Shown: in pieces, positions 45,570 to 64,000 of the stretch | Position numbering within the stretch: the stretch's first letter is position 1 | How the letters are laid out: each line of letters begins with the position of its first letter | Origin: Streptomyces globisporus | GTDB lineage: Bacteria > Actinomycetota > Actinomycetes > Streptomycetales > Streptomycetaceae | DNA: 64,000 bases | Reading direction: 5' to 3' | NCBI GenBank assembly: GCA_014649555.1 | Contig: BMTG01000018.1 | Coordinates: forward strand, 36,778 to 100,777 | Notes under the pieces: generated by a model | What the model was told of the DNA's origin: nothing | Databases searched by the model: none | The model's input: only the letters and a program-made list of their open reading frames with translations | Program-made: the position numbers and the translations under genes

Positions 45570-46001
45570 ACCATGAGCGATCATGTTGCGTGGTGCCTTG
45601 CTGTGCTGCCTCATGACGTTCTTCCTGATCAGAGCATGTGCAGCAGCTTGGCCTGTGCCACCCGGTGCTGCACCGTCCAAAGGCGTCCGTCCACCGACTG
45701 TCCACCGGCGGGGTTCTCTTCAGACCGCCGGTGACGCTGCGGCCGGGCTGCCAGCAGTGCTGTCCACCGGGCGGAGAGACCGGCGATGCTCCACTGTCGG
45801 ACCTCTACAAGCCGTCGCCAGCGCTCTACAGCGAACCATGGCGGATGCAGCTATGTGAACCCTTCGTGAAGACACACAGCCTCTCTGTGTTGGCTTCGTG
45901 TTTAATCGTTGATCGATTGAACTATGAGCATCGTGTCCGGCGGCGCTCCTCGAACGCGGGGGATCCGCAGAGCACGGTACGGCGGGGGATGTGGGGGATG
46001 T
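45570..46001. other. Promoter region of the SARP regulator
   Basis: About 430 bases without a gene. The last 120 bases are A/T-richer, with a short inverted repeat AATCG-TTGAT-CGATT at about 45904-45918, and are the likely promoter of the regulator at 46002. The left part may be the end of an integrated element. Confidence 0.4.
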
Positions 46002-49000: not shown

Positions 49001-49049
49001 CGTCGTCGTGGAGGCCACGGTCCTCGCCCGAGAGCTCGCCGCCCGGTAA
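46002..49049 (+). CDS. SARP-type cluster activator with NB-ARC and TPR domains (AfsR-like)
   Basis: 1015 residues. OmpR-like DNA-binding domain at 1-95 (IRFSLLGPLEIEVDGRPVRV, ALTETVWQGTPPATARNQIA), bacterial transcriptional activation domain at about 100-245, NB-ARC ATPase from about 290 with P-loop VSGVSGVGKSALALHW (about 318), LLIILDDVRSS and GRLPLALRIAAGRLA. C-terminal TPRs span about 690-980. SARPs bind heptameric direct repeats and switch on antibiotic clusters. ATG 46002 is chosen over 45924 because it begins at the conserved domain. It is the likely activator of the lipopeptide genes to the right. Confidence 0.92.
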   Translation: MTERIRFSLLGPLEIEVDGRPVRVSSGRQRAVLAMLLISPDRVVSVDALTETVWQGTPPATARNQIAICVTSLRKTFRAAGADDGLIETSHPGYILSSRNCRIDLKELGELIGRARLAAAHDDRAPEATELFEQALGLWRGQALDGLGGGRIDDTATELNELWLDVNEEYAALQLRLGWHRPVVARLTPLVREHPLREQARAHLMQAHHLAGRRAEALQLYRLGREALVEELGVEPGPALREMHRQVLQEEDGPGAAPRGKAPAVPAAPAVAALTAGASVPAQLPLPAAAFTGREPELATLDELLPGQDDKVLAVAVVSGVSGVGKSALALHWANRAARHFPDGQLFIDVHGYREDDQPLSPMTVLDQALRALGVSSAQIPAGLPERSALYRSVLSGRRLLIILDDVRSSTQIRPLLPGRGQCVVLVTSRDQLDELAGDYAAVHIPLKVLTPDEADRMLATVIGAERVATDPVSAARLVELCGRLPLALRIAAGRLATRPHWSLRQLTSRLEDRFSRLDVLSPNDGGVRAGFQLSYRELSPEAAQLYRRLGLLPVTTFTGWMGAAVLDVGVHRAEDLIEQLVDAQLLEVSTPGAGTLQSRFRIQELLRLFAWERAHVEDGEQEREDAVARAFGTLLTLADEAHRRLYGKGTLMPHRARHAVALPGTTVARLLADPIEWFESERTTVLGLTGHAAQNPALGHAWELIARTVPLFETRNYLDDWEQAARVSLEAARAAGDGLGAAVMLRSLGTLAITRRRYGDAEELLSQAMELLDGRSADGSGERALVLRNLALCARFKGDLDGAAHFCRSALDHFGHSDDLAERSHALGLLAQIELERGDTEAGIALTREAIRSGEAAGSVRGKAQNIYRLAEAYLRAGEMRSAEDSCREVVSLTRVQGDRLGEAYALRALGETQWRQDRPHEAEATLKEALAVAEEVADRFLQARTEVDLACAEATRRGAGAVSRLRRAREVFRGMDAGSWERRVGRALERVVVGEREGVVVEATVLARELAAR

Positions 49050-49105
49050 CGGGGGCGGGGCACAGGGGAAATCGAGGTGAAAGGCGGGCTTCCTATGTTC
49101 GGGGG

Positions 49106-50155
49106 ATGAGACGCCTTGGGGTAGACGTGGTGCCGTTCCGCGGGGTGCGGGTCGGCGCGGGAGGAGTCCTCGCCTTCGACGAGTGGCCCGCGCTGTACGG
49201 GTACGAGTGGGGCGGCGGCCGGCGCGGGATCATCGGTGCGGTGCGGCTGACCGGTGCGGTGGTGCCGCACGAGGATGTGGCGGCGGAGGCCGTGGAGGAG
49301 CGGGTGGCGTTCCTGCGGGCGGGGCGCGCGCAGCTGGAACCGGTGCTGCTCGGGTACCGGGGCGGCGACGGCGGGGCCGCCGGGGTGCTGGAGCGGACCG
49401 CGCACGAGGAGCCGGCGCTGCTGGACGCCTGGGACCCGGACGGCGTACGGCACCGGCTGTGGGCGATCACCGGCCGCGCCGACCAGGGGGCGGTACGTGC
49501 GGACCTCGGTGTCCGGCAGGCGCTGATCGCGGACGGGCACCACCGCTGGGCGACCTACCGCGAGCTGCGGGAGGTGGACGCGGCGGCCGGGGAGTTCGGG
49601 CTGGCGCTGCTCGTGGACACCGGCCGCCATCCGTTCGCCATGGGCCCCATCCACCGGGTGCTGCCCGGGCTGCCGCTCCGCGACGCGCTGGCGGCGGTCG
49701 CGGGCCTCTTCCGCGTGCGGCGGCTGCCCGGTGGCTGCGTGGAAGCGCTCGAAGCGCTGGACGGACGGGCGGCGGGCCTGGAGGTGCGGGGCAACGCCTT
49801 CGTGGTCACGGACGGGCGGGCCTTCCACCTGCTGGACACACCCGCACCGGAGTTGACCGGACACACAGTGCGTCACGACCGGCCCGCGTGCTGGCGCGAG
49901 CTGGACGCCACGGTGCTGCGTGACACGCTGCTCGGCCACTTGTGGAAGGTGCCGGCGCACGACGCGCGGCAGGTCGGGCACACGCACGACGCGGACGAGG
50001 CGGTGCGGCGGGCGGACGGCGGGACGGCGGTCCTGATGCGTCCGGTCGGCGAGGACGTGGTGCGCGAGCTGGCGCAGGCCGGTGTCACGCTGCCCTGGAA
50101 GTCGACGTCCTTCGAGCCCAAGCCGCTGCGCGGACTGGTCTTCCGGATGCTGTGA
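49106..50155 (+). CDS. DUF1015-family protein
   Basis: 349 residues. Conserved points of DUF1015 are present: VVPFRGVRVGAGG near the start, the central ALIADGHHRWATYRELREV (about 133-150) with the family's DGHHR motif, and the C-terminal VTLPWKSTSFEPKPLRGLVF with the usual K-S-T-F-F-like end. The biochemical role is unknown, and members occur widely in bacteria and archaea. It follows the SARP gene by 56 bases on the same strand, so it may be cotranscribed, though it has no evident job in lipopeptide synthesis. Confidence 0.85.
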   Translation: MRRLGVDVVPFRGVRVGAGGVLAFDEWPALYGYEWGGGRRGIIGAVRLTGAVVPHEDVAAEAVEERVAFLRAGRAQLEPVLLGYRGGDGGAAGVLERTAHEEPALLDAWDPDGVRHRLWAITGRADQGAVRADLGVRQALIADGHHRWATYRELREVDAAAGEFGLALLVDTGRHPFAMGPIHRVLPGLPLRDALAAVAGLFRVRRLPGGCVEALEALDGRAAGLEVRGNAFVVTDGRAFHLLDTPAPELTGHTVRHDRPACWRELDATVLRDTLLGHLWKVPAHDARQVGHTHDADEAVRRADGGTAVLMRPVGEDVVRELAQAGVTLPWKSTSFEPKPLRGLVFRML

Positions 50156-50213: not shown

Positions 50214-52028
50214 TCAGGCCGGTACCGGCACGGACCGCGTGGCCGTGGCGACAGTCCGGGCCAGGGCGTCGTTCGTGGCCAGGTGGCGAGCGCTCAGGCC
50301 GCCCGCCAGGAACTGCTCACGCATCGCGGCACGCTGGATCTTCCCGCTGGTCGTCCGCAGTACGGCGCCGCGCCGGACCAGGGCGACCGCACCGGGCCGG
50401 ACGCTGAACGCGCGGGTGATGTCGGCCCTGATCCGCTCCGCGAGCGGCCCGAGCGCGTCGGACCGTACCCCGCCGCGCACTTCGTGCACCACGACGAGCT
50501 GTTCGTCCACCTCGCCGTCGTCAGCCGTCACCGGTACGAGGAACGCGGCGCCGAACAGGCCCACCAGGTCTTCGTGGCCCGCACGCATGAAGTGCTCGAT
50601 GTCCTGCGGGTAGATGTTGCGGCCGCGCAGGATGATCAGCTCCTTGATCCGGCCGGTGACGTACAGGTCGCCGTCGTGGACCGTGCCCAGGTCGCCGGTC
50701 CTGACGTATCCACCGTCGCCCTGGGCGGTGCGCGCGCCGAAGGTCGCGGCGGTGGCCTCGGGACGGTCCCAGTAGCCGCGGGCGACACTCGGGCCGCGCA
50801 GCCACAGCTCACCGACCCGGCCCGCCGGCAGCGCCGCCAGGGTGGCGGGGTCCACGACCGCGACGTCGTAGTCGAGGGCGGCGCCGCAGCTCACCACCGG
50901 GCGGCCCGGCCGGTCCGCGTCGACGGGGGAGAACGCGTGTTCCTCCAGGGCCGCTTCGTCGACCCGGGTGACGGTCAGCTCGCGCGGTCCGGTGCCGGAG
51001 ACGAACACGGTCGCCTCCGCCATGCCGTAGCAGGGGAGCATCGCGTCGGCGCGGAAGCCGGCGGGCTCGAACCGCTCGCTGAACGCGGTCAGGGTGGACG
51101 CCTGGATCGGCTCCGAGCCGTTGGCGGCGTACCGCCAGCGGGACAGGTCGAGGGTGGCGAGCTGCTCGTCGGTGATCTGGCGGGCACACAGCTCGTACGC
51201 GAAGTTGGGCCCCGCCGACCAGGTGATGCCGTAGTCGTCGATGACCTTCAGCCACCAGTACGGGCGCTTGAGGAAACTCGTCGGGCTCATCAGGACGCAG
51301 GAGCCGCCGAGCAGCAGCGGCGGCAGCAGGATGCCGAGCAGACCCATGTCGTGGTACTGGGGTATCCACGAGCCGAAGCGGGTGGTGCGGTCGAGGCCGA
51401 ACGCCCGGCTGAGACCGTCCGAATTGTGCAGCAGGTTCCCCTGGGTGACCATCACGCCCTTGGGGTCCGAGGTGGAGCCCGAAGTGAACTGGAGGAGGGC
51501 CAGGTCGTCGTGGGTGACCGCCTCGGGCATCACCCAGGCGTCCGCGTGCGCGTCGGTCAGCTCGGGGCCGTCGGTGACCAGGCAGGCGGGGGCGGTGTCC
51601 GAGGCGGCCGCCCAGTCGAGGACGGACGGCGCGACGGCCTCGCTGGTGAGCACCACGGAGACGGTGGCGCTGCGCGCGATGGAGTCGACGCGACGCCGCT
51701 GGTGGGCGTAGGCGCCCGGCAGCGACGAGGGGACGGCGACCACACCCGCGTACAGGCAGCCCACGAAGGCGGCGGCGAACTGGAGGCTCTCGGGGTAGAG
51801 GAGCAGGACGCGATCGCCCGGTGTGCACAGCTCCTGGAGCCGGCCGGCGATCTTCCGTGCCTCGTGGTCGAGCCGTTCGTACGACCATCGCTCGTGGCTC
51901 TCCGGGCCCGGGGACGCGGGGTCGCGGACGAAGACGACGGCGGTCTCGCCGGGTGTGGCGGATGCGTTCTCGCGGATGCGGGCCGTGGCGCTCGACGCGG
52001 ACGGCAGGGCGCTGGGCTGCCAGGACAT
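50214..52028 (-). CDS. Fatty acyl-AMP ligase (FAAL), lipid starter loading
   Basis: 604 residues of the ANL adenylation superfamily: LALLQFTSGSTSDPKGVMVT (about 185), GSWIPQYHDMGLLGILLPPL (the FAAL/FadD pattern), LPCYGMAEATVFVSG, YVRTGDLG and the C-terminal RTTSGKIQRAAMR with the catalytic Lys. FAALs activate free fatty acids as acyl-AMP and pass them to an ACP instead of CoA. ATG 52028. It is last of the five-gene minus-strand block with two dehydrogenases, an ACP and a C domain, and supplies the acyl tail of the lipopeptide. Confidence 0.93.
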   Translation of the reverse strand: MSWQPSALPSASSATARIRENASATPGETAVVFVRDPASPGPESHERWSYERLDHEARKIAGRLQELCTPGDRVLLLYPESLQFAAAFVGCLYAGVVAVPSSLPGAYAHQRRRVDSIARSATVSVVLTSEAVAPSVLDWAAASDTAPACLVTDGPELTDAHADAWVMPEAVTHDDLALLQFTSGSTSDPKGVMVTQGNLLHNSDGLSRAFGLDRTTRFGSWIPQYHDMGLLGILLPPLLLGGSCVLMSPTSFLKRPYWWLKVIDDYGITWSAGPNFAYELCARQITDEQLATLDLSRWRYAANGSEPIQASTLTAFSERFEPAGFRADAMLPCYGMAEATVFVSGTGPRELTVTRVDEAALEEHAFSPVDADRPGRPVVSCGAALDYDVAVVDPATLAALPAGRVGELWLRGPSVARGYWDRPEATAATFGARTAQGDGGYVRTGDLGTVHDGDLYVTGRIKELIILRGRNIYPQDIEHFMRAGHEDLVGLFGAAFLVPVTADDGEVDEQLVVVHEVRGGVRSDALGPLAERIRADITRAFSVRPGAVALVRRGAVLRTTSGKIQRAAMREQFLAGGLSARHLATNDALARTVATATRSVPVPA

Positions 52029-52099
52029 GTTTCCCCCAAGGGGTCGGCCGGATCGGGTGGAGTGGGCTGGGCGGGGTGTACGGGGCCGTGGCGTCGGGG

Positions 52100-53491
52100 T
52101 CACCAGTCGTCGTCCGCGCCGAGGGCAAGCAGCGAGTCCAGCTCGCCCGCCCGCACCAGGGCGGGGCCGGTGACCGGCTCCTCGGGGTGGTCGACGGCGG
52201 CGGTGAGCAGCTGGACGTAGTGGTCGAGCAGCCGGCGCACCGTGCTCTCGTCGAACAGGTCGGTGGCGTAGCGGAAGACGGCCGTCAGGGACGTCTCGCT
52301 CTGCCGCATCTCCACCGAGATGTCGAACTGGCCCTCCAGCATGGGGACGTCGACGAAGGCGACGTCGAGGCCCGCGTACCGGGTGGTGGTGCCGGTGGCG
52401 GCGGCCTCGGTGACGCGTTGCAGGAGCGGTTCCAGCCGGGTGGGCGCGACCATCGTGAACGCCATCCGCACCGGCGGGTTCCGGGTGCTGTACGGGTCCT
52501 CGCCCGCGAGCAGGGCGTAGGGGAAGGCGATGTTGCGCATCGCCGTCATCACCTGGCGCTGGGCCGCTCCCGCGGCCTGGGCGAACGTCGTCTCCGGTGT
52601 GAAGTGCGCGGGGACCACCAGGGTGTTGACGAGATAGCCGACGACCTGGCGCATACCGGGGCCGCTGCGGGTGGTGGTCGGGGTGCCGATGAGGAAGTCG
52701 CGCCGGCCGCCGTAGCGGTGCACCAGGCTCTGGAAGACGCCGAGCAGCAGCGCGAAGCCGGTGACCTTGGTCCGCCGGGCCGTCTCCCTCAGGCGTGGTA
52801 CCAGCTCGTCGGGCAGCCGTAGTTCGCAGGTGGCGCCGTGCAGGACGCCCGCCTCGGCGGCGGCGCGGGGGCGGTCGGTCGGCAGCTCGCCGGCTGGCGC
52901 TCCGGCGCAGAAGTTCTCCCAGAAGAAGGCGAGTTCGGCACGCCGAGGGCTGCTCAAGACACGCTGCTCCTCGGCCACGTAATCGTCGAAGGTGCTTCTC
53001 AGCGGGGGTGGCGGCTGGTGCGCGTACAAATCCAGGAGGTCCTGGAGGAGCAGCCACTGGGAGGTCGCGTCGGAGACGATGTGATGGGTGCACACCGCGA
53101 GGACGGCGTCCGTCGGGGAGCGGCGTACGAGGAGGGCGCGGGAGGTGCCCTCGGCCGTCAGGTCGAAGGGCAGCCTGCCGAACTCGGCGACGAGCTTGGT
53201 GAGGTGGTCGTCGTCGGTGGATTCCGGTATGTCCATGACCTCCAGGGGGAGCAGGGCGGGGGGACCGGGCACGCGCTCGGGGCCGCCGGGGCCCTCCGTG
53301 AAGGTGGAGCACAGCACGTCGTGGCGTTCGGCCAGGGCGTGCAGGGCCTGCCGCAGGCGGCTCTCGTCCAGGGCGCCGCGCACGCGCAGGGCGGCCTGGA
53401 CGTTGTAGGCGGGGCTTTCCGGGGCCATCCGGTACAGGAACCAGAGGGCCTCCTGGCCCACGGACAGCGGTCTGCCGGGGGCCGTGGTCAT
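52100..53491 (-). CDS. Stand-alone NRPS condensation domain for lipoinitiation
   Basis: 463 residues comprising one condensation domain: RPLSVGQEALWFLYRMAPES (C1), the catalytic CTHHIVSDATSQWLLLQDLL (about 130-150), FLIGTPTTTRSGPGMRQVVG and YLVNTLVVPAHF (C5). The C3 motif keeps His-His and Asp, but the usual final Gly is Ala. The NRPS at 60024 lacks an N-terminal C domain, so this protein probably acylates the first amino acid with the ACP-bound fatty acid. The start overlaps the ACP stop (ATGA). Confidence 0.88.
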   Translation of the reverse strand: MTTAPGRPLSVGQEALWFLYRMAPESPAYNVQAALRVRGALDESRLRQALHALAERHDVLCSTFTEGPGGPERVPGPPALLPLEVMDIPESTDDDHLTKLVAEFGRLPFDLTAEGTSRALLVRRSPTDAVLAVCTHHIVSDATSQWLLLQDLLDLYAHQPPPPLRSTFDDYVAEEQRVLSSPRRAELAFFWENFCAGAPAGELPTDRPRAAAEAGVLHGATCELRLPDELVPRLRETARRTKVTGFALLLGVFQSLVHRYGGRRDFLIGTPTTTRSGPGMRQVVGYLVNTLVVPAHFTPETTFAQAAGAAQRQVMTAMRNIAFPYALLAGEDPYSTRNPPVRMAFTMVAPTRLEPLLQRVTEAAATGTTTRYAGLDVAFVDVPMLEGQFDISVEMRQSETSLTAVFRYATDLFDESTVRRLLDHYVQLLTAAVDHPEEPVTGPALVRAGELDSLLALGADDDW

Positions 53492-53778
53492 CGCGGATCG
53501 GCGATCTGCGCGTGGATGTGGGTGGTGAGGGCGTCCACGGTGGGGTGGTCCCAGGCGAGGGTGGCCTCCACGACGATGCCGAACTGCTCTTCGACGTCCC
53601 CGCAGAGGGTGAGGGCGTAGACCGAGTCGAGGCCGATCTCCACGAGGAGGGCGTCGGAGGCGATGTCCTGCGGCGTCACGTCGAGGAAGTAGGCCACCCG
53701 CTCGGTGAGCCACTCACGGACCTCCTCCGGCGTCCGGACGGTGGTCGTGGCGGTCGTCGTGGCCTGGTCGGTGCTCAT
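53488..53778 (-). CDS. Free acyl carrier protein
   Basis: 96 residues. The carrier motif LLVEIGLDSVYALTLCGDVE holds the phosphopantetheine Ser (about 51). The Thr-rich N-terminus is unstructured. In this operon it receives the fatty acid from FAAL, presents it to the two acyl-CoA-dehydrogenase-like enzymes and then to the stand-alone condensation domain, whose start codon overlaps its stop. Confidence 0.92.
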   Translation of the reverse strand: MSTDQATTTATTTVRTPEEVREWLTERVAYFLDVTPQDIASDALLVEIGLDSVYALTLCGDVEEQFGIVVEATLAWDHPTVDALTTHIHAQIADPR

Positions 53779-53855
53779 GGGTGCTCCTTGGTGGGTGGAA
53801 AGGTGGTGTGAGGCTTCAGGTCGCGGACCGCCGGCGGTACGTCGACGGGCGCGGG

Positions 53856-55550
53856 TCAGGTGCGGGTGAGCGACAACGGGGTGTCGCTGCCGGTGAGGGA
53901 GTCGAAGAGGACGGCCTCGGTCTCCGGCGGGAGGACCGCGGCGTGTCCCAGGCGGGTCGCCAGGCGGGCCAGGGCGGCGGTCAGCCAGTGCGGCGACGTG
54001 AGGAACGGGTCCGCCGCGTGCTGGTTGTGCACCCAGATCCCGAGGCAGGCCGAAGCGGCCGCCAGATGGGCGTAGCGGTCGGCGAGGACGTACCCCGCCC
54101 GGCCCGCCATCACCGAGGTGTCCGTGGGCCGCAGGGCGAGACAGCGCTCCCGCAGGTCCGCCAGGTCGGCGCGGAACAGGGCGACCAGGCGGGCGGCGGC
54201 GTCCGGCAGGAGCTCCGCCACGCCTGGGTGGCCCAGCGTCGCGGTCAGCCGGTCGGCACCGCGCGCGGTGAGTTCGAGGGCCTGGTAGTCGATCTCGCCC
54301 AGCGGCGCGTCCAGCCGGAACAGGCCGGCCGACGGTTGCTCGGCGATCCCCCAGCTCGCGGCGGCCATCCGGGGCAGCTGGGGGAGCATCGTCGCCAGGC
54401 AGACGGAGGCGTTGGCGTGCGCGAAGGTGATCGCGGGCAGATCGCGGGCGAACTTCTGGAAGATCGCGTAACTGCCGTCACGGAGGAAAGAGTTGGCGCT
54501 GAGGATCGCCCCCAGGTCACGGCTCGCCCGGTGCAGGAGCTTGGGGGCCAGATATTTGTTGGCCGCCGTGAGAACGCTCGTCTGGTCGGGCAGCACGTGC
54601 AGCGCGCGGCAGGAGACCGTGGTGAGGGCGTCGGCGGCCAGCAGATCGGCGTACGCGGCGACCAGGGTGGCCCGCGCGTGCGGCAGGTCGGCGACCCGGC
54701 GCCCGTACAGCCGACGCTCCAGGGTGAAGCGGGTCACCGTACGCAGGATCGTGTCGAAGGCGCCGGCCATCATGCCCGGGGCGACGGCGCGGGTGGTCTG
54801 GAAGGCGCGCAGAACGGTCTCCATGGCGCCGCCCACCGGCCCGATGTGGGCGTCGGCGGGGACCGGGAACGCGGTGAACTCGGCACCGCCGATGAGGCAG
54901 CCGCGCAGGCCCGCCGTGGGGAAGCGCTCGTCGCGCCGCACCCGGCCGGCGTGGCCTTCGGTGAAGTCCACGAAGACGTGCGAGTGGCTGCGGTTGCCGG
55001 GGCCCTCGCCGGTGCGGGCGAGCAGCACGACAGCGTCGGCGCGCCCGATGTTGTTGACGACCTGCTTGTGCCCGTCCAGCAGCAGCCGGCCGCCGTCGGG
55101 GGTGGCGGTGAGGTCGGTGCGGGTGAAGTCGTTGCCGTGCGGGAGCTCGTTGTATGCGGCCGCCGTCCTGCCGCCGGCGAGCAGGATGTCGGCCATCCGG
55201 CGCTGCTGCGCCGGGCTGCCGGAGGTCCACATGGCCGAGCCGGAGATGTAGTTGGTGAATCCGTAGCCGAGGGCCAGCGTGGGGTCGCGGCGGGAGACCG
55301 CGCGCATCACGTGCATGAGGCGCTCGATGTCGGTGAGCCGGCCGCCCAGGCGGGCCGGTACGAACTCGGCGTTCAGCCCCCAGTCACCGAGGGCCCGTTC
55401 GCCCTCGGGCAGCAGCTCGGCGCGCTCGTCGGCGGCCAGGACTGCGTGCAGGCCGAGCGGGTTGGCCGGGTCGTGCGGGTCACCGAGGACGACTTCCAGG
55501 TCGGCCGTCGAGGGGCGGCCGGTGGTGGGGGCGGGGGCGGTCGGGGTCAC
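53856..55550 (-). CDS. Long acyl-CoA dehydrogenase-like enzyme 2 (acyl-ACP desaturation)
   Basis: 564 residues. The acyl-CoA dehydrogenase fold is recognisable: ALGYGFTNYISGSAMWTSGS, AAYNELPHGNDFTRTDLTA, GHKQVVNNIGRADAVVLLAR, then RAFQTTRAVAPGMMAGAFDT and FTLERRLYGRRVADLPHARA. It is much longer than housekeeping members (about 380-400), like those in ramoplanin/enduracidin/friulimicin-type clusters that introduce double bonds into the starter fatty acid. It overlaps the upstream dehydrogenase gene (ATGA). FAD-dependent, probably acting on acyl-ACP. Confidence 0.87.
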   Translation of the reverse strand: MTPTAPAPTTGRPSTADLEVVLGDPHDPANPLGLHAVLAADERAELLPEGERALGDWGLNAEFVPARLGGRLTDIERLMHVMRAVSRRDPTLALGYGFTNYISGSAMWTSGSPAQQRRMADILLAGGRTAAAYNELPHGNDFTRTDLTATPDGGRLLLDGHKQVVNNIGRADAVVLLARTGEGPGNRSHSHVFVDFTEGHAGRVRRDERFPTAGLRGCLIGGAEFTAFPVPADAHIGPVGGAMETVLRAFQTTRAVAPGMMAGAFDTILRTVTRFTLERRLYGRRVADLPHARATLVAAYADLLAADALTTVSCRALHVLPDQTSVLTAANKYLAPKLLHRASRDLGAILSANSFLRDGSYAIFQKFARDLPAITFAHANASVCLATMLPQLPRMAAASWGIAEQPSAGLFRLDAPLGEIDYQALELTARGADRLTATLGHPGVAELLPDAAARLVALFRADLADLRERCLALRPTDTSVMAGRAGYVLADRYAHLAAASACLGIWVHNQHAADPFLTSPHWLTAALARLATRLGHAAVLPPETEAVLFDSLTGSDTPLSLTRT

Positions 55551-57508
55551 GGCGTCTCCTGGAGCTGCGGTACGGCGGCGGACCGGGCGGGCCGCTCGGC
55601 GTCGTCCGGGGAGGGGGCGAGGGGGAAGGGCAGCAGCGAGAACATGCGCCCGCCGGTGTGCTGGTCGAGGAGGTGGGGCAGCAGGTCGTCCAGGACGGCC
55701 TCCTCGTCCCCGGTCCCCTCAGCGGGCAGCCGGCCCGGCGCCAGCCGGGCCGCGAGCCGGGCGAGACACGCCTCCAGCCAGAGGCCGTCGCGCCAGGCGC
55801 CCTCGGTGCGGGCGGCCCGGTTGTGCAGAAAGATCTGTACACAGGCCGCCGCGGCCGCGCACAGCGTGTACCGGTGGGCCAGGTCGAAGGCGTCGGCGGG
55901 CACGTCGCGGGGGGTGGGCCGGTGGGCCGCCATCCGCTCGTGGGTCTCATCGGCGACCTCGCGCAGGTGCGCCGCACGGTCGGCCAGGGAGACGGGCACC
56001 GCGCCGGCGTCGGCCAGCGCGCGCAGCGCGTCGGCTCCGGCGGGCAGCGACGCGGTGACGCTGTTGCCGCCCCGGGAGGTCAGGTCGAGCCGGACGGGAT
56101 CGAACTCCGGTACCGGCAGGCCGAGGTCGGCGGCCGTGGCGAGCGCGTCGGCCTCGGTGCGCCCGGCCCGGTAGCCGCGGGCGAGTGAACCGAACTGGTT
56201 GATCAAGGCGTTGAGATTGACCAGCGAGTTGCCGTCGAAGATGCCGACGATGCGGTGGTCACGCTCCAGCTTGGCGAACGCGCCGTGCGCGAAGTCCTCG
56301 CTGAGGAAGGACCGCGCGCCGAGGAACTGCCCCATGTCGGTGACCAGTTGATCGACGGTCGCGGGCACCAGGTACTTGAGCGTGGGCGACGTGACGCTCA
56401 TCTCCTCGGTGAGCGCGTGCACCCCGCGCGCCGCGAGGAGGGTGACGGCCTCCGCCGTGAGCAGGTCCGCGTATGCCTCGGTCAGGGAGCGGCGGGCCTG
56501 CGGGAGATCGATGAGGCGCTTGCCGTACAGCTGGTGCTCCAGGCCGAAACCGGTGGCGATGCGCAGCGCGTGGTCGCCCGCCCCGAGGGACAGCGAGGCG
56601 CACAGGGTGCGGGTGATCTGGAGGGCCCGCAGCACCGTCTCGATGCCGCTGCCCTCCGCGCCTAGCAGGGCGGAGGCGGGCACCCGCGCGCCGGTGAAGG
56701 AGATGCCGCTGATGTCGGCGCCGCGGATGCCGTGGGTGCGGGCGGCGGGCAGCGGGGTGTGGGTGCCGTCGGCGAGCGTCGACCGGTCGACGAGCAGCAG
56801 GCTGTAGCCCCGGGTGCCGCCCGCGGGTGCAGTGCGGGCGAGTACGCAGATCAGGTCGCAGCGGGTGGCGTTGTTGATCAGCCACTTCTCGCCGTCGAGC
56901 CGGTAGCCGCCGTCCGGGGTGCGGGTCGCGGTCAGAGTGCCGGACAGCAGGTCACTGCCGTGCTCGCGCTCGGTCAGGCCCCAAGAGACGACCGCACCGG
57001 CCGCGACCCGCTCGCCCAGGGCACGGGCCTGCTCGGCCGAGCCCACGACCCAGGTGCTGACCGCGCCGAGATAGGTCTTGGTGTGCGCGATGGCGACGGT
57101 CAGGTCCCGCCGCGCCACCACCCGGACCAGGTGCAGCAGGTCCTCGTAGCTGCGCAGGGCGCCGCCGTGGCGGGCCGGCACGTAGTGCGCGGGCAGGCCC
57201 GCCGCGTCGAGGAGGCGCACCTGGTCGGCCGGGAAGTTCTCGGCCGCGTCCAGCTCGCGCAGCCGGCCCGGAAAGAAGGGCAGATCGGTGCGGGCGGGGT
57301 CGCCCAGCTCCCGGTCGAGAGCGCCGGCCAGCGCGTACGGCGGGTACCCCGGCGTGGGCCGCGGCCCCTCCCGCGTCACCACGTCCTGGCCCTCCCCCTG
57401 CCCGATGCGTCCCGCCGCGGCCACACCCCCACCGGAAACGACGGTCCTCCCGGAATCCACGACCTCACCTGAATCCACTGCCCCCACCTGAATCTGCGAA
57501 CGGTTCAC
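55547..57508 (-). CDS. Long acyl-CoA dehydrogenase-like enzyme 1 (acyl-ACP desaturation)
   Basis: 653 residues as drawn: AIAHTKTYLGAVSTWVVGSA, SWGLTEREHGSDLLSGTLTA, LDGEKWLINNATRCDLICVL, LQITRTLCASLSLGAGDHAL and FGLEHQLYGKRLIDLPQARR. It is paralogous to the next gene and together with it may install two double bonds or a conjugated diene. The first about 45 residues (VDSGEVVDSGRTVVSGGGVA) are repetitive, and the DNA has direct repeats of GTGGATTCAGGTG at 57470-57500, so the true start may be an internal GTG near VVTREGPRP. It is first gene of the block. Confidence 0.87.
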   Translation of the reverse strand: MNRSQIQVGAVDSGEVVDSGRTVVSGGGVAAAGRIGQGEGQDVVTREGPRPTPGYPPYALAGALDRELGDPARTDLPFFPGRLRELDAAENFPADQVRLLDAAGLPAHYVPARHGGALRSYEDLLHLVRVVARRDLTVAIAHTKTYLGAVSTWVVGSAEQARALGERVAAGAVVSWGLTEREHGSDLLSGTLTATRTPDGGYRLDGEKWLINNATRCDLICVLARTAPAGGTRGYSLLLVDRSTLADGTHTPLPAARTHGIRGADISGISFTGARVPASALLGAEGSGIETVLRALQITRTLCASLSLGAGDHALRIATGFGLEHQLYGKRLIDLPQARRSLTEAYADLLTAEAVTLLAARGVHALTEEMSVTSPTLKYLVPATVDQLVTDMGQFLGARSFLSEDFAHGAFAKLERDHRIVGIFDGNSLVNLNALINQFGSLARGYRAGRTEADALATAADLGLPVPEFDPVRLDLTSRGGNSVTASLPAGADALRALADAGAVPVSLADRAAHLREVADETHERMAAHRPTPRDVPADAFDLAHRYTLCAAAAACVQIFLHNRAARTEGAWRDGLWLEACLARLAARLAPGRLPAEGTGDEEAVLDDLLPHLLDQHTGGRMFSLLPFPLAPSPDDAERPARSAAVPQLQETP

Positions 57509-57671
57509 GGCTGTTTCTGATGACCTCAGTCTTGGCCAACAAGGGGCCCCTGTGGCGGTCCCGGGCTGTCAGGACCTTGCGGTGACACTTCCCTGCCATG
57601 GCCAAAACCGTTCCCCGGCGAAGTCGCGCTCTAGTGTCCTCAGTGCACGCCCAACAGGTGAGGGGGAATCC

Positions 57672-58655
57672 ATGCCGAGCACATCACATTCGGGGATTCT
57701 GGGGACGATCGGCAAGACACCTCTGGTGAAGCTGGACCGCATGTTTCCTGGCGAGAGCGCTCACGTCTACGCCAAGATCGAGCGGTTCAATCCAGGGGGC
57801 AGCATCAAGGACCGGAGCGGCCTGAACATGCTCCTCGAAGCGCTGCGCAACGGCGATATAGAGCCGGGACGTTCGGTGATCGTGGAGTCCAGTTCGGGAA
57901 ATCTCGCAGTAGGGCTCGCACAGATATGCAGGTATTTCAACCTGCGCTTCCTGTGTGTGGTCGACGCCAAGACCACGGAACAGAACCTGGCCATTCTCCG
58001 GGCCTACGGAGCCGAAGTGGAGGTCGTCGACGAGCGGGACGAGGAGACGGGCGAGTTCCTGCCCAACAGGTTGCGCCGGGTGCGCGAACTCATGGCACGG
58101 ATTCCGCACGCCTATTCGCCCAACCAGTACGCGAACCTGTTCAACCCGAAGGCGCACGAGAACACGATGCACGAGATCGTCGAGGCCCTCGACGGCCGCG
58201 TCGACTATCTCTTCGCCTCGGTGAGCACCTTCGGCACGCTGCGCGGCTGCGCGGACTACCTGCGCAAGGCGGGCCTCGCCACCAAGGTGGTCGCGGTCGA
58301 CGCCGAAGGCAGCGCGATCTTCGACCGGTCGCCCACCCGCCGCCTCATCCCCGGCCACGGGGCATCGGTGCGGCCGGCCCTGATGGACCCGGCGGCGGCG
58401 CACGAGGTGATCCACGTCTGCGATCTCGACTGCGTGGTGTTCTGCCGCCGGCTGGTCGGGCGCGAGGCGATCCTGGCCGGCGGGTCGTCCGGCGCGGTGC
58501 TTGCCGCCGTGGACAAGTTCCTGCCGCGGATCGAGCCGGGATCGGTGTGCGCCGTCATCTTCCCCGACGGCGGGGACCGCTATCTCAAGACCATTTACTC
58601 CGACGACTGGGTGCGTGACCACTTCGGTGAAGTCTCGCACCTGTGGAAAGGCTGA
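57672..58655 (+). CDS. sbnA: N-(2-amino-2-carboxyethyl)-L-glutamate synthase, SbnA family
   Basis: 327 residues, PLP fold-type II: TIGKTPLVKLDRMF, the PLP Lys in RFNPGGSIKDRSGLNMLL (about 43), ESSSGNLAVGLAQI, and VSTFGTLRGC replacing the GTGGT loop of cysteine synthases. It condenses O-phospho-L-serine with L-glutamate, the first step to L-2,3-diaminopropionate. ATG 57672 follows GAGGGGGA. sbnB begins 5 bases later, which separates it from a plain cysteine synthase. Confidence 0.93.
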   Translation: MPSTSHSGILGTIGKTPLVKLDRMFPGESAHVYAKIERFNPGGSIKDRSGLNMLLEALRNGDIEPGRSVIVESSSGNLAVGLAQICRYFNLRFLCVVDAKTTEQNLAILRAYGAEVEVVDERDEETGEFLPNRLRRVRELMARIPHAYSPNQYANLFNPKAHENTMHEIVEALDGRVDYLFASVSTFGTLRGCADYLRKAGLATKVVAVDAEGSAIFDRSPTRRLIPGHGASVRPALMDPAAAHEVIHVCDLDCVVFCRRLVGREAILAGGSSGAVLAAVDKFLPRIEPGSVCAVIFPDGGDRYLKTIYSDDWVRDHFGEVSHLWKG

Positions 58656-58660
58656 CCCTC

Positions 58661-59650
58661 ATGCTCGTAATCCGGCAAGCGGATGTGGAGAAGCTCCTCA
58701 GCAACAAGGAGCGGGAACACATCGATGCCGTCAGGGCGACCTACCTGCTCCACGAACAGGGCGCCACCGTCATTCCGCGCTCCGTCTTCCTGCGGTTTCC
58801 CGACCAGCCGTCCGACCGCATCATCGGGCTTCCGGCCTTCCGGGGCGGAGAGCACCCCGCGGCAGGGATGAAGTGGATATCCTCCTTCCCCGGCAACGTC
58901 CAGTCCGGAATTCCCCGGGCGAGCGCCGCCATGCTGCTCAACTCCCTGCGCACCGGCCATCCGGAGGCGCTGCTCGAAGGGTCCCTGATATCCGCCGCGC
59001 GCACGGCCGCTTCCGCCGCGCTCGCCGCCGAGATGCTCACCCGGGAGAGCCGCCCGACCGGAATCACCCTGGTCGGCTGCGGCGTCATCAACCTGGAGAT
59101 CCTGCGCTATGTGAACGCGGCGATCGACACCCTCGAAGAAGTGACGATCCACGACAGTTCCGCTCCCCGCGCCGGGGAATTCGCACGCCGCTGCGCGGAA
59201 TTGCTTCCGCAGGCCCGCGTCGCCGTGGTGGATTCCCTCGACGAGGCGCTCGCCGCCCAGCGGCTGGTGTCGTTCGCGACCTCCGCCGGCGTCCCGCACA
59301 CCGATCTGACCGCGGTGGCGCCCGGTTCGGTCGTCCTGCACGTCTCGCTGCGCGACATCGACCCTGAGACCCTGCTGCACACGCACAACATCGTCGACGA
59401 CGCCGATCACGTCTGCCGTGAGCTCACCTCGCTACACCTGGCCGAACGCATGAGCGGCCACCGCCGCTTCATCGACGCCTCGATCGGTCAGCTCATCGCC
59501 GGGACCCGCACTTTCACGCCGGACCCGGACAAGGTGACCGTCTTCTCCCCCTTCGGCCTCGGCGTCCTCGACCTCGCCCTCGCCGTCGAGGTGCACACCT
59601 CGGCCCGTGAGCTGGGCCTCGGCGTCGACATCACCGACTTCCTCGCCTGA
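58661..59650 (+). CDS. sbnB: L-2,3-diaminopropionate-forming dehydrogenase, SbnB family
   Basis: 329 residues of the ornithine-cyclodeaminase/mu-crystallin fold: AGMKWISSFPGNVQSGIPRA (about 74), LISAARTAASAALAAEML, the dinucleotide site TLVGCGVINLEILRYV (about 132) and LHVSLRDIDPETLL. It oxidatively hydrolyses the SbnA product to L-Dap and 2-oxoglutarate with NAD. ATG 58661 is used; GTG 58643 overlaps the sbnA end. With sbnA it supplies a Dap residue to the NRPS. Confidence 0.92.
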   Translation: MLVIRQADVEKLLSNKEREHIDAVRATYLLHEQGATVIPRSVFLRFPDQPSDRIIGLPAFRGGEHPAAGMKWISSFPGNVQSGIPRASAAMLLNSLRTGHPEALLEGSLISAARTAASAALAAEMLTRESRPTGITLVGCGVINLEILRYVNAAIDTLEEVTIHDSSAPRAGEFARRCAELLPQARVAVVDSLDEALAAQRLVSFATSAGVPHTDLTAVAPGSVVLHVSLRDIDPETLLHTHNIVDDADHVCRELTSLHLAERMSGHRRFIDASIGQLIAGTRTFTPDPDKVTVFSPFGLGVLDLALAVEVHTSARELGLGVDITDFLA

Positions 59651-59736
59651 GCGCGCGCCCGCGGCCACCGCGAGCGCGACCACGGCGCCCCGGGCGCCGG
59701 ACACCACCCATCACCCCTTTCCGAAGGAGAACCACC

Positions 59737-59934
59737 ATGTCCAGCGAGCAGACCTCCTACCGCGTCGTCCTCAACGACGAGGAGCAGTACTCGATCTGGT
59801 GGACGGACCGCGACCTGCCCGCCGGCTGGCAGGCCGAGGGCACCGAGGGAACCCGCGAGGAGTGCCTCGCGCGGATCGCCCAGGTGTGGACCGACATGCG
59901 TCCGCTGAGCCTGCGCGAACGCCTCGCCGCCTGA
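59737..59934 (+). CDS. MbtH-like protein
   Basis: 65 residues: YRVVLNDEEQYSIWWTDRDL, PAGWQAEGTEGTREECLARI and VWTDMRPLSLRERL contain the MbtH signature (N-x-E-x-Q-x-S-x-W, P-x-G-W, W-T-D-x-R-P). It is an activating partner of NRPS adenylation domains. ATG 59737 follows AAGGAG. It lies between sbnB and the NRPS. Confidence 0.96.
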   Translation: MSSEQTSYRVVLNDEEQYSIWWTDRDLPAGWQAEGTEGTREECLARIAQVWTDMRPLSLRERLAA

Positions 59935-59992
59935 TCACCGTCCCGCGAGGGCCCCGCTCAGGGCCCGTTCCCTCCATCCCATGCCTATTCAC

Positions 59993-60006
59993 ACCTGGCG
60001 CCAGGT
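59993..60006. promoter_or_regulatory. 14-bp perfect palindrome before the NRPS start
   Basis: ACCTGGCGCCAGGT lies between mbtH and the NRPS, 17 bases before the TTG start and just ahead of its ribosome site. It may be an operator or a small RNA hairpin affecting readthrough or translation. Confidence 0.4.
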
Positions 60007-60023
60007 CATTTAAGGAGTACCTG

Positions 60024-63000
60024 TTGAACGCCGCACAGTTGCCGGGGACGTCCCTGAGCGGAACCGTCTCCACCGCGCAGCCGGAGTCGCTGCCCGCGCT
60101 CTTCGCCGCGCAGGCTGCCCGAACCCCTGACGCGATCGCCGTCGTCGAAGGAGGTGGCCGCACGGTCGACTACCGCATGCTGGACGCCGCCGCCGAGCAG
60201 GTCGCGCGCTTCCTGCGGGCGGCGGGGGCCGGCCCCGGGACGCTGGTCGGCGTATGCCTGGACCGGGGCAGCGATCTCGTCGCCACCCTCCTGGGCGTGG
60301 GACGGGCCGGGGCCGCCTATCTGCCCCTGGACCCCTCCCACCCCCAGGACCGGCTGACCGCGCTGCTCACCGCCGGCGGCGCCGCCCTCGTCGTCGCCGA
60401 ACCGCGGCTCGCCGCTCACATCGCCCCGCCGGGGGTACGCGCCCTCACCCCTGCCGACATCAACGCCACCGGCCTGTCCGACGCGCCGTTCGCGGCGCCC
60501 GACCCCGCCGCCGTCGTCTGCACGATCTTCACCTCCGGCTCGACCGGACAGCCCAAGGGCGTCCAGATCACCCATGCCGGCCTCGCGGGCCGGATCGCCT
60601 GGTCCGTGCGCAAGCACGGGCTGGACGCCGATGACCGCTGGCTGTTCAAAACATCCCCCGGCTTCGACGCGGCGGGCCTGGAAATCTACGCGCCACTGAT
60701 CAGCGGCGGCCGAGTGGTCTGCGCCCCCGAAGGCGCCGAGCGCGACCCGCGCGCCCTGCTGAGCGCCGTGGCCGACGCCGGCGTCACCGTCCTCCAGGCC
60801 GTACCGTCCGTCCTCCGGCTGCTCGCCGAGGAGTCCGGCTGGGCCGACTGCGAACCGCTGCGGCTGCTGTTCAGCGCCGGCGAGCCGCTCCACGCCGAAC
60901 TGGTCTCGCGGCTGCGGCAGGTGGCCCCCGGCCCGGTCGAGGTGTGGAACACCTACGGGCCCACCGAGTGCTCCATCGACATCACCGCCCACCCCGCCGA
61001 CCCCGACCAGGAGGCCGGCCCCGTCCCGATCGGCCGCCCCCTCAAGGGCATGCGCGTCCTGGTCATGGGCGCCGACGGTACCCCCGCCCCCAAGGGCGTC
61101 GCCGGTGAGCTGTACGCGGGCGGCACGGGCCTGGCCCAGGGGTACGCGGGCCGCCCCGACCTGACCGCCGAGCGCTTCGTGCCCGACGCGTACGGGCCGC
61201 CCGGCAGCCGGCTCTACCGCACCGGTGATCTCGTGCGCTGGAACACCGACGGCGTCCTGGAGTACCTGGGACGCCTCGACGATCAGCTGAAGGTCAACGG
61301 AGTGCGTATCGAGCCCGGCGAGGTCGAGGCAGCGCTCACCGCCCATCCCGAGGTGACCGGCGCCGTCGTCGTCGCCTTCACCGCCGCGGACGGGGGCCGG
61401 CGGATCGGTGCGGCCGTCACCGCACGGACCCGGACCGGCTCCGCCGACCTCCGCCGCCACCTGCGCACCCGGCTGCCCGACAGCCACGTACCGTCGCTCT
61501 TCCTGCCGCTGGACGCACTGCCCCTCACCGTGAACGGCAAGGCCGACCGCAAGGCCGTCACCGCCCTCCTGGACGAGACGACGGCCGTCGGACAGGACGC
61601 GTATGTCGCCCCGCGCACCCCTGCCGAGCAGCAGGTCGCCGATGTCTGGGCGGCCCTGCTCGGATGCGAGAAGGTCGGCGCGACCGACGACTTCTTCGCG
61701 CTGGGCGGCACCTCCCTCCAGCTGACCCGGCTGGCCGCCCGGCTGCGCGCGGCGGGCGTCACGATCTCCATGCGCGGCCTGTTCAGCGCCACCACCGTGG
61801 AGGCGCAGGCCCGCCTGATCGACGCGCCGGCCGCCGACGCCGACGCCATGACAGCCGTCCCGCGCACCGGTGAACTCCCGCTCTCCTCCGGCCAGCGCCG
61901 CCTGTGGGTCCTGGACCGGATGAACCCGGGCAGCCGTGAGTGGGTCGCCCCGCTGATCGTGCGCCTGCCGGGCGGAACCCCGGTCGCCGCCGTCCAGGCG
62001 GCCCTCGACGAGCTGTCCGCCCGCCACCAGATCCTGCGCACCCGCTACGAGGAGAGGGACGGCGAGCCCCGGCAGGTGATCGGCGCCCCCGTCCCGGTGG
62101 AGCTGCGAGTGGCCGACACCTGCCGCGAGGAGCTGGCCGGCCGCTTCGAGGAGCAGTTCGCGCGCGGCTTCGACCTGGCGGCCGGACCGCTGTGGCGGGC
62201 GCTGCTCGCCCGCGTCCCCGGTGAGGACCACGTCCTGCTCGTCACCCTGCACCACATCGCCTGCGACGGCTGGTCCACCGTCGTCCTGGAGCGCGAGCTG
62301 CGCGAGCTGTGCGCGGCCTCCGTCGAGCGCCGCGCGCCCCGGCTGGCCGCGCCCGGCCTTCAGTACGCCGACTACGCCGCCTGGCAGAGCAAGCGGCTCA
62401 CCGACGCGTTCCTGGCCGGGGAGCTGGCGCACTGGCGCGCCGCACTCGACGGCGTCGAGCCCGTGGAGCTGCCGACGGACCGGCCCCGGCCCGCCGAGCG
62501 GGACTCGCGCGGCGCGGTCGTGCCGATCCGCGTGGAGCCGGAGCTGTTCGCCCGGGTGGAGGAGTTGGGCCGCGCCCACGCCGCGACCCCGTTCATGACC
62601 CTGCTGACGGTCTTCGCCACCGTGGTGGCCCGGTACAGCGGCCGGTGGGACATCCCGGTCGGCACCCCGGTGGCGGGACGCGGCCGGCCGGAGGTGGCCG
62701 GCACCGTGGGGTTCTTCCTCAACTCCCTCGTGGTGCGCTGCGCACTGGAGGGCGACCCCACCTTCGAGGAGGCGCTGGGCCGGGTGCGGGCCGCGTCCGT
62801 GGCGGCCTTCTCCCACCAGGACCTGCCCTTCGACCGGCTCGTGGAGGAGTTGGCGCCGGAGCGTGACCTGTCGCGCACACCGCTCTACCAGGTCGCCTTC
62901 GACATGCACAGCGAAGGCGTGACCAGCGTCGCCACCGGCACCGCCGACCTCGCGGCCTTCGCCGAGGCGTGGACGGTCGCCAAGACGGACCTGTCGGTCT

Positions 63001-64000
63001 TCGTGGGCCGCTCCGCCGACGGCGCCCTGGAGGGGGTCCTGGAGTACGCGACCGCCCTCTTCGACGAGGCCACGGTCGTCCGCTTCAAGGACCACTTCGT
63101 CCGGGTCATGGAGGAGGTCACGGCCCGGCCAGGGGTGCGGCTGTCCCAGGTGGCGCTGCTGCGCCCCGAGGAGCGCACCCTCGTGCTGGACGTGTGGAAC
63201 GCGACCGGGGCCGATCTCGGTGACACGAGCGTCGTCCGGCGCTTCGAGGAACAGGCCCGGGCCACGCCCGAGGCGCCCGCGGTGTCCTTCGGCGACGCCT
63301 CGGTGACGTACAAACAACTCGACCTCCGGGCCGCCCAGCTCGCGCACCACCTGCGCGCGCTGGGCGTGCGCCCGCACACCCCGGTCGGCGTCCTGCTGGA
63401 CCGGGGGCCCAATCTGCTCGCGGCGTTCCTCGGGGTGTGGAAGGCCGGCGCGTCGTACGTGCCGATCGACCCGTCCTACCCGGCCGAGCGGATCGCCTCG
63501 ATGCTGGAGACGGCCGGCGCCGCCTTCGCCGTGACGCAGGAGGCGTACGAGGCACGCTTCAGCGGCTTCACGACCGTGCTCGTCGACCGGGACCGGGCCG
63601 CGATCGACGCCCGTCCCCGGACGGCGCCGGAGCGCGGCGAGGACCCGCAGGCGCTGGCGTACACCATCTTCACCTCGGGCTCGACCGGCCGCCCCAAGGG
63701 CGTCGAGGTCACCCACGAGGGTCTGGCGAATCATGTCGCCTGGGCGGCACGGGAGTTGGCGTCCCATGGACAGGGCGGCGCACCGCTGTTCTCCTCGGTC
63801 GCCTTCGACCTCGTCGTCCCCAACCTGTGGGCCCCCCTCGTCACCGGCCAGAAGGTGCACACCGTCGCCCAGGACATCGACATGGCCGACCTCGGAAGGG
63901 AACTCGCCGGATCGCGGCCCTACAGCTTCATCAAGCTGACCCCGGGCCATCTCGACGTCCTGGCCGAGCAGTTGACCGCGGAACAGGCCGCCTCGCTCGC
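60024..64000 (+). CDS. Nonribosomal peptide synthetase, A-PCP-C-A..., partial (runs off the window)
   Basis: The frame is open to the window end (at least 1325 residues). A1 spans about 15-520 (A3 core FTSGSTGQPKG at about 170, NTYGPTEC, YRTGDLVRW, VNGKADRKA). PCP1 has LGGTSLQ with Ser564. C spans about 612-1030 with VTLHHIACDGWS. A2 starts about 1065 and is cut after its A4 region. A TTG start at 60024 has AAGGAG six bases before it. No C domain precedes A1, which fits loading of the first residue and acylation by the separate C domain. My reading of the A1 pocket is D-A-L-Q-F-A-T-I-D, matching no code I know; A2 begins D-L-P-K. Confidence 0.95.
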   Translation, partial: MNAAQLPGTSLSGTVSTAQPESLPALFAAQAARTPDAIAVVEGGGRTVDYRMLDAAAEQVARFLRAAGAGPGTLVGVCLDRGSDLVATLLGVGRAGAAYLPLDPSHPQDRLTALLTAGGAALVVAEPRLAAHIAPPGVRALTPADINATGLSDAPFAAPDPAAVVCTIFTSGSTGQPKGVQITHAGLAGRIAWSVRKHGLDADDRWLFKTSPGFDAAGLEIYAPLISGGRVVCAPEGAERDPRALLSAVADAGVTVLQAVPSVLRLLAEESGWADCEPLRLLFSAGEPLHAELVSRLRQVAPGPVEVWNTYGPTECSIDITAHPADPDQEAGPVPIGRPLKGMRVLVMGADGTPAPKGVAGELYAGGTGLAQGYAGRPDLTAERFVPDAYGPPGSRLYRTGDLVRWNTDGVLEYLGRLDDQLKVNGVRIEPGEVEAALTAHPEVTGAVVVAFTAADGGRRIGAAVTARTRTGSADLRRHLRTRLPDSHVPSLFLPLDALPLTVNGKADRKAVTALLDETTAVGQDAYVAPRTPAEQQVADVWAALLGCEKVGATDDFFALGGTSLQLTRLAARLRAAGVTISMRGLFSATTVEAQARLIDAPAADADAMTAVPRTGELPLSSGQRRLWVLDRMNPGSREWVAPLIVRLPGGTPVAAVQAALDELSARHQILRTRYEERDGEPRQVIGAPVPVELRVADTCREELAGRFEEQFARGFDLAAGPLWRALLARVPGEDHVLLVTLHHIACDGWSTVVLERELRELCAASVERRAPRLAAPGLQYADYAAWQSKRLTDAFLAGELAHWRAALDGVEPVELPTDRPRPAERDSRGAVVPIRVEPELFARVEELGRAHAATPFMTLLTVFATVVARYSGRWDIPVGTPVAGRGRPEVAGTVGFFLNSLVVRCALEGDPTFEEALGRVRAASVAAFSHQDLPFDRLVEELAPERDLSRTPLYQVAFDMHSEGVTSVATGTADLAAFAEAWTVAKTDLSVFVGRSADGALEGVLEYATALFDEATVVRFKDHFVRVMEEVTARPGVRLSQVALLRPEERTLVLDVWNATGADLGDTSVVRRFEEQARATPEAPAVSFGDASVTYKQLDLRAAQLAHHLRALGVRPHTPVGVLLDRGPNLLAAFLGVWKAGASYVPIDPSYPAERIASMLETAGAAFAVTQEAYEARFSGFTTVLVDRDRAAIDARPRTAPERGEDPQALAYTIFTSGSTGRPKGVEVTHEGLANHVAWAARELASHGQGGAPLFSSVAFDLVVPNLWAPLVTGQKVHTVAQDIDMADLGRELAGSRPYSFIKLTPGHLDVLAEQLTAEQAASL

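Follow-up and report, generated by a model that had tools for sequence, protein, structure and literature searches.

What does a gene cluster make that joins lipopeptide initiation to the supply of L-2,3-diaminopropionate (Dap), and that breaks off inside a nonribosomal peptide synthetase (NRPS)? The question is raised by a window of 64,000 nucleotides of Streptomyces globisporus DNA (the whole stretch analysed; assembly GCA_014649555.1, contig BMTG01000018.1, here C18, positions 36778-100777). A sequence-only reading had named a fatty acyl-AMP ligase (FAAL), a free acyl carrier protein (ACP), two acyl-CoA-dehydrogenase-like enzymes (ACAD1 and ACAD2), a stand-alone condensation (C) domain, SbnA, SbnB, MbtH and an NRPS that starts with an adenylation (A) domain; each was located at window positions 50214-64000 by profile searches and in the sequence (Table 1). 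Which genes are present, how the modules are ordered and, in most cases, to which family a protein belongs are read directly from the sequence. The best explanation of the whole, to which we give slightly better than even confidence, is a product of the type (2,4-dienoyl?)-ureidoalanyl-Asn-Dhb-(dehydro-)Asn-Asn, where Dhb is dehydrobutyrine; the contig order and all of the chemistry are what we infer.

The contig end and the assembly line

Base 64000 of the window is the last base of C18 (100777 bases); the right edge is a contig end inside the second A domain and no biological end. In family scans, the right ends of C18 and of a second contig, C38, each break an A domain at profile position 233, and the left ends of C38 and of a third, C14, each take one up again at position 279. 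C18 and C38 have their 59 terminal bases in common, and C38 and C14 their 59 initial bases. Such shared ends within A domains are expected where an assembler halts at a repeat, and together with the broken domains they make C18-C38-C14 the simplest path, on which C38:951 is the last base of NRPS-A and C38:948 the first of NRPS-B. Both NRPS frames are unbroken in the complete S. coeruleorubidus chromosome, in the order A1, C2, A2 / C3, A3, C4, A4, C5, A5 and a terminal domain resembling penicillin-binding proteins (PBP). The proposed path places ACAD1 20.3 kb plus two short gaps from a transcarbamylase gene on C14; this distance was 20.4-20.6 kb in five of the seven other same-genus genomes with both genes on one contig, although the remaining two, at 24 and 32 kb, count against a fixed spacing. 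Since the spacing and the S. coeruleorubidus cluster agree, five modules are supported. C38 and C14 thus probably continue the cluster, as two NRPSs with five modules in total and a fused PBP/beta-lactamase-like terminal domain, and provide the rightward extension that the sequence-only reading had suggested. The window itself would hold the initiation half of this three-contig cluster.

Contig C11 was rejected as the NRPS continuation: its NRPS frames end within the contig, and a search for end-to-start overlaps of 10-399 bases joining it to C18 or C38 gave none. It carries a second, separate multi-module NRPS cluster of the same genome, with a FAAL-like neighbour (40%; L003/L004, G000:C11:1-28700).

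Dap supply, the transcarbamylase and the first residue

Both enzymes of Dap supply exceed their curated equivalog cut-offs (SbnA, TIGR03945, 419 bits against 350; SbnB, TIGR03944, 399 bits against 327), in agreement with the earlier claim that they make Dap. The transcarbamylase on C14 has the motif HDLP (HDLPAHR). HDLPAHR and a RWQTTG loop were present in all ten copies from nine genomes, and HDLP in 29 of 29 further same-genus copies, picked by similarity (at least 62%). The ArgF-type enzyme of the same genome has HCLP and DVWVSMG, and its PyrB-type enzyme HPGP and RVQRER. HDLP is described as characteristic of the Dap and 2,4-diaminobutyrate (Dab) transcarbamylases of viomycin, zwittermicin and padanamide, and an arginine of the 240s loop (R212 in the S. 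mutabilis enzyme) is suggested to contact the carboxylate (PMC4581275). The enzyme of this cluster has RWQTTG and lacks SMG, as judged by motif comparison. By the position of SbnA and SbnB adjoining NRPS-A, L-Dap would be the substrate. SbnA and SbnB would make L-Dap, which the transcarbamylase probably converts to beta-ureidoalanine, and A1 would load the latter on the thiolation domain T1.

The specificity code of A1, read at positions that we take to be those of GrsA (PheA), is DALQFATIDK; nine of the ten lipid-type relatives with a readable A1 have DAWQFATIDK, and S. coeruleorubidus has DAWQAATIDK. Glutamine and beta-ureidoalanine share the same shape. The Dab code has Glu at position 278, where A1 has Gln. 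The clade consensus DAWQFATIDK matches eight of the ten letters of the Gln code DAWQFGLIDK (PMC2866473), and the code of this cluster seven. Because of the HDLP transcarbamylase and the Gln-like code, residue 1 is likelier to be beta-ureidoalanine than free Dap; the earlier placement of Dap near the N-terminus thus holds for the supply genes and is revised for the residue.

Three points weigh against this assignment. The HDLP motif does not distinguish Dap from Dab transcarbamylases. In reviews of viomycin, the VioL carbamoylation comes only once desaturation or assembly has taken place, and by that order Dap itself might be the substrate of A1. One genome (G126) has an A1-clade domain, with SbnA/SbnB on another contig, and no HDLP transcarbamylase was found in this 480-contig draft. 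The last two, like the SbnA/SbnB equivalogs themselves, would suit an A1 that loads L-Dap, with carbamoylation later on the peptide as in viomycin, or with the beta-amine of Dap closing a ring and the transcarbamylase used otherwise. We consider this rather unlikely in view of the Gln-like code, and two Dap codes share 80% with Dab codes (PMC12283262).

The A1 code was also followed through related clusters. Regions with both SbnA (at least 55%) and the HDLP enzyme were fetched, 25 in all, and 23 hold an A domain with the code DA(W/L)Q.AT(I/V)DK; the two misses are incomplete, as MP36_L018 shows no A domain and G351 has the domain on a different contig. No further A code was seen by inspection to be common to all 23. 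The 25 regions had been chosen for matching this cluster's TauD-type oxygenase, transcarbamylase or ACAD2 and are not a random sample, and the clusters are related, so the regions do not count as separate events. All 35 A1-type domains form an exclusive clade (support 0.989) in a FastTree built from 193 full-length A domains and rooted at the midpoint. The A1 clade also occurs in five regions that lack SbnA (G377, G194C2, G126, G351_C43 and G163); the genomes concerned carry SbnA at another place, that of G163 being only 43% identical. A tie of A1 to TauD rather than to Dap supply was rejected, TauD being present in 13 of the 23 regions and absent from ten. Conversely, 20 of 23 regions with TauD (at least 59%) hold an A1-clade domain, this cluster and that of S. 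beigongshangae being counted over their separate contigs; the three regions without one are G029, G292 and G161.

Other observations weaken the link between the clade and ureidoalanine. A C4-like C domain is likewise present in 23 of the 23 regions, so co-occurrence by itself points to this domain no less than to A1. Six HDLP regions have A domains but no A1 clade (G181, G167, G362, G033, G120 and G093), as do the contig fragments G343 and MP36_C17. For C14 and the S. beigongshangae piece C206, the A1-clade domain lies on another contig, and G312, G044 and G335b have no A domain within the stretch examined. In G120 and G093 (L177, L178) the HDLP transcarbamylase is close to, and divergent from, an A domain with the code DASQFAHIDK, which resembles that of A1; SbnA was not found at 1e-60 in G120 and lies 1.75 Mb away in G093.

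A different division of labour, in which Gln is the substrate of A1 and the DLPKVAEVGK-type domains of modules 2, 4 and 5 take Dap or ureidoalanine, would agree with the Gln-like code and with the presence of DLPK-type domains in 18 of the 23 regions. It is improbable in our judgement, because the five regions without DLPK (G375, G353b, G390, G050 and G169) keep the A1 clade, SbnA and the transcarbamylase. Moreover, 50 DLPK-type domains fall in a weak clade of the same tree (0.54) with five DLTK(I/V)GEVGK domains, other DLTK domains lying outside, and DLTKIGEVGK stands in the Asp/Asn section of PMC12283262, which also gives it for cyano-alanine and lists such codes for beta-hydroxy-Asp/Asn.

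With beta-ureidoalanine as the favoured substrate of A1, we tentatively propose, at somewhat less than even confidence, that the code DA(W/L)Q.AT(I/V)DK marks this residue, and that a large actinomycete family joins ureidoalanine to enzyme-made dehydroamino acids, both lipid-capped, as in this cluster, and lipid-free. With an A-domain clade tied to a rare amino acid, ureidoalanine-peptide clusters could become recognisable from sequence.

Lipid initiation, later residues and release

The minus-strand operon runs ACAD2, ACAD1, ACP, stand-alone C, FAAL; SbnA-SbnB-MbtH-NRPS-A diverges from it, with 163 bp between the ACAD2 start and SbnA, and NRPS-A opens directly with an A domain (TTG at 60024). 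The FAAL would load a fatty acid onto the free ACP, the two ACADs would introduce double bonds into it, probably giving a 2,4-dienoyl chain, and the separate C domain is proposed to join the acyl-ACP to the residue on T1, which would thereby be N-acylated. The putative FAAL identity rests on NCBIfam model ranking and PF00501. The six best single-enzyme models were FAAL-type, all below their curated cut-offs, and the CoA-ligase-named model PRK07768 outranked FAAL28. The best PDB matches of the stand-alone C domain were other NRPS C domains. FAAL, ACP and a specialised C domain are described in PMC9113097, where one or two ACADs give one or two double bonds and taromycin and malacidin, with two ACADs, are linked to 2,4-dienoyl chains; by this analogy the chain here is probably 2,4-dienoyl.

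FAAL, ACP, a similar stand-alone C domain and SbnA occurred together in 12 of 47 named ACAD2 loci. Ten of these have two ACADs and two have one (L027 and L029, both Nonomuraea), where the ACAD1 query recovers only the ACAD2 gene. L027 and L029 are related lipid clusters with SbnA/SbnB, the A1 clade and Thr at position 2. L018 has SbnA without FAAL or C within its fragment, and L026 and L043 have a similar C domain and no SbnA within the flanking sequence examined. Gene content bears out the first reading that lipoinitiation is split, with FAAL and free ACP, a C domain in trans and an A-first NRPS, and that the acyl chain is unsaturated. The pair of dehydrogenases, named in that reading as part of a combination that it could not assign to a known product, is not unusual: taromycin and malacidin (PMC9113097) and the ten loci above have it too.

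Very similar NRPS clusters have no FAAL (at least 40%) or ACAD2 (at least 45%) in the region (G078, G353 and G088 types), as would be seen if the five minus-strand genes served another product and the SbnA-NRPS side made a non-lipidated peptide. We hold this to be very improbable, given the 12 loci with the joint set. ACAD1 (54-74%) was moreover present in all nine genomes selected because their TauD and transcarbamylase were the most similar, in seven of them on the transcarbamylase's contig at 20-32 kb and in the other two on split contigs; at 1e-60, seven further genomes yielded none apart from a distant copy (40%) in G078. As the clusters without FAAL or ACAD2 still hold SbnA, the transcarbamylase and the A1 clade, they seem to belong to one broader family to which the lipid cap is an addition.

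After acylation of ureidoalanine, NRPS-A and NRPS-B would append four residues, in the order Asn-type, Thr, Asn-type and Asn-type. The A3 code, DFWNVGMVHK, is that of Thr. A5 has DLPKVAEVGK, and A2 and A4 start with DLPK and end with VGK, their middle being lost in the contig gaps; all three are read, from the codes cited above, as probable Asn or beta-hydroxy-Asn domains. With the Gln-like A1, this provides the substrate predictions that the sequence-only reading had proposed to add.

C4 and C5 matched McyA in the PDB with 177 and 167 bits and AmbE with 158 and 163 bits, and the next solved C domain with 77 and 103 bits. For C3 of the same protein, the control, the order was reversed (Txo1 286, AmbE 85, McyA 75 bits). 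McyA (8jbr), which we take to be a dehydrating C domain, and AmbE (7r9x) are the closest solved relatives; C4 and C5 keep the second His of the motif but have Cys in place of the first (CHAILDG, CHAITEG). The upstream T domains speak against a dehydrating role, as T3 and T4 carry GGHSL and GGHSI and not GGDS, and according to a review dehydrating C domains go with T domains of the GGDS type (PMC10880069); C4 and C5 are therefore termed only DHC-like (like dehydrating C domains). C4 follows the Thr module and would turn Thr3 into dehydrobutyrine, so that Dhb is likely at residue 3. A C4-like domain follows a Ser-type module in G375 and a Thr-type module in G050 and G169. In G088, G186, G051, G324, G046 and G277 it follows a DLPK module, with no TauD of at least 59% in the 40-kb region, which the proposed scheme does not account for. 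The TauD-type oxygenase may beta-hydroxylate residue 4 so that C5 can dehydrate it in turn, and a dehydro-residue at this position is a guess. Assignment of TauD as an AsnO/VioC-type enzyme was not supported, its only PDB matches at 1e-3 being At3g21360 and 9yut. Three C domains like C4/C5 occur in a row in one Plantactinospora cluster, and a related lipopeptide cluster of Streptomyces sp. ISL-96 (L012/L063/L064) has at least eight modules and five consecutive C domains most like C4/C5.

NRPS-B ends C5-A5-T5-PF00144, and PF00975 was found only in a separate gene. The second-best PDB match of the terminal domain is 6ksu, which we take to be the PBP-type thioesterase SurE, and SxxK is present in 16 of the 16 copies listed. 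Where PBP-type thioesterases presumably have YxN, this domain and four relatives have KSS. In contrast to SurE, it forms a single protein with the last module. It would release the peptide, cyclic or linear. After NRPS-B, C14 (L054) carries genes for the transcarbamylase, a major facilitator superfamily (MFS) protein, a phosphopantetheinyl transferase (PPTase), the TauD-type oxygenase, FtsX and ATP-binding cassette (ABC) proteins, a type II thioesterase, a histidine kinase with response regulator and a LuxR-type regulator; many are kept in relatives. The MFS and FtsX/ABC genes may export or protect.

At the left, the AfsR/SARP-family regulator has relatives at 64% and 66% identity near the two closest clusters and is likely a cluster member at its edge. 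Between it and the FAAL gene lies a DUF1015 protein (window 48746-50155), whose gene is the probable left edge of the cluster.

Table 1. Features of the cluster; window positions unless a contig or locus is named.
Feature	Position	Strand	Basis or remark
AfsR/SARP-family regulator	45924..49049	+	PF03704, NB-ARC, TPR
FAAL, 604 aa	50214..52028	-	ATG at 52028; PF00501 237 bits (query 50214-51977)
Stand-alone C domain, motif THHIVSDATS	52100..53491	-	PF00668 235 bits
Free ACP, 96 aa, phosphopantetheine motif LDSV	53488..53778	-	PF00550 47 bits
ACAD1, acyl-CoA-dehydrogenase-like, 564 aa	53856..55550	-	PF00441 and PF02771 above cut-off, PF02770 below its cut-off
ACAD2, acyl-CoA-dehydrogenase-like, 653 aa	55547..57508	-	PF02770, PF00441, PF02771
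SbnA-type enzyme, first step to L-Dap	57672..58655	+	TIGR03945 equivalog
SbnB-type dehydrogenase, second step to L-Dap	58643..59650	+	TIGR03944 equivalog
MbtH-like protein, 65 aa	59737..59934	+	PF03621 69 bits; NCBIfam: no match
NRPS-A 5' part, A1-T1-C2-A2 (cut by contig end)	60024..64000	+	TTG start; proposed continuation C38:1-951
A1 domain, code DALQFATIDK	60171..61370	+	TIGR01733 421 bits; exclusive clade; proposed beta-ureidoalanine specific
C2 condensation domain, LHHIACDGWS	61869..63179	+	
A2 domain, first half only (DLPK...), Asn-like	63306..63983	+	
PBP/beta-lactamase-like domain fused to last NRPS module	L054:4141-5307		PF00144

Related clusters and known systems

TauD relatives of at least 60% were found at no fewer than 38 places in 36 of 392 same-genus genomes, this one included; here and in the ACAD1/transcarbamylase survey the five best candidates per genome were scored, and the counts are lower bounds. 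The lipopeptide family is present in this genome and at least nine others of the 392, plus several named species. Among clusters without the lipid genes, G088, G186, G051, G324, G046 and G277 (L162-L166, L168, L179, L197-L202) have SbnA, the HDLP transcarbamylase, a stand-alone C domain, a DHC-like C domain after DLPK and the A codes DALQFATVDK, DITQ.GEIAK, DLPKIAEVGK and DLPGVAEVAK, with no FAAL or ACAD within 40 kb. The G375, G353, G390 and G351 regions combine an A1-clade domain with DVDENGNVTK, a Ser-type code, a C4-like domain, SbnA/SbnB, TauD and the transcarbamylase (in G351 over two contigs), with no FAAL within the regions examined. A further 52 kb in G092 (L104-L106, G092:C1:4336000-4388000) hold relatives of TauD (88%), MFS, PPTase, ABC, kinase and regulator genes and no NRPS, transcarbamylase or FAAL; the assembly is 78% complete, so this is loss or an assembly fault.

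Among the titles and abstract openings listed by searches of open-access papers, none described this gene set, MIBiG and most subscription papers lying outside the comparison. The predicted product was matched to no known antibiotic, and the lipopeptide family has no assigned product in the literature reached. Friulimicin, laspartomycin, taromycin and malacidin share with this cluster FAAL, a free ACP, one or two ACADs and unsaturated acyl chains, but have a specialised C domain on the first NRPS module and a CAT-CATTe ending (PMC9113097). This cluster differs from the daptomycin type in its separate C protein, A-first NRPS, five modules and PBP-like end, with no alpha/beta thioesterase on the NRPS. 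Enamidonin, autucedine and olenamidonin are also Streptomyces cyclic lipopeptides, with two Dap residues; their core is Phe-Dpr-Dpr-Gly, and the lipid is attached via dehydro-beta-alanine, with a proposed ketosynthase-type lipid ligase, OleH/AutS (PMC11204786). A known lipopeptide of the laspartomycin/friulimicin, ramoplanin or enamidonin groups would have the lipid cassette or Dap in common with this cluster; the five modules, the A-first start, the ending and the enamidonin-type core all argue against one, and we judge it extremely unlikely. Compared by description, enamidonin and autucedine were rejected as the product, no Phe- or Gly-type code being present among the five A domains by our presumed reading of the codes.

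A Dap supply of the SbnA/SbnB type is presumably common to this cluster and the viomycin/capreomycin and zwittermicin A pathways. An HDLP Dap transcarbamylase is shared with the same pathways (PMC4581275). The viomycin core consists of Dap, Ser, ureidodehydroalanine (Uda) and capreomycidine, and no Ser-type code is present among the five A domains, so that the tuberactinomycin pentapeptide (Dap/Ser/Uda/capreomycidine) is not matched. From viomycin and the other tuberactinomycins the predicted product is set apart by its acyl chain, its Asn-type residues and its Thr.

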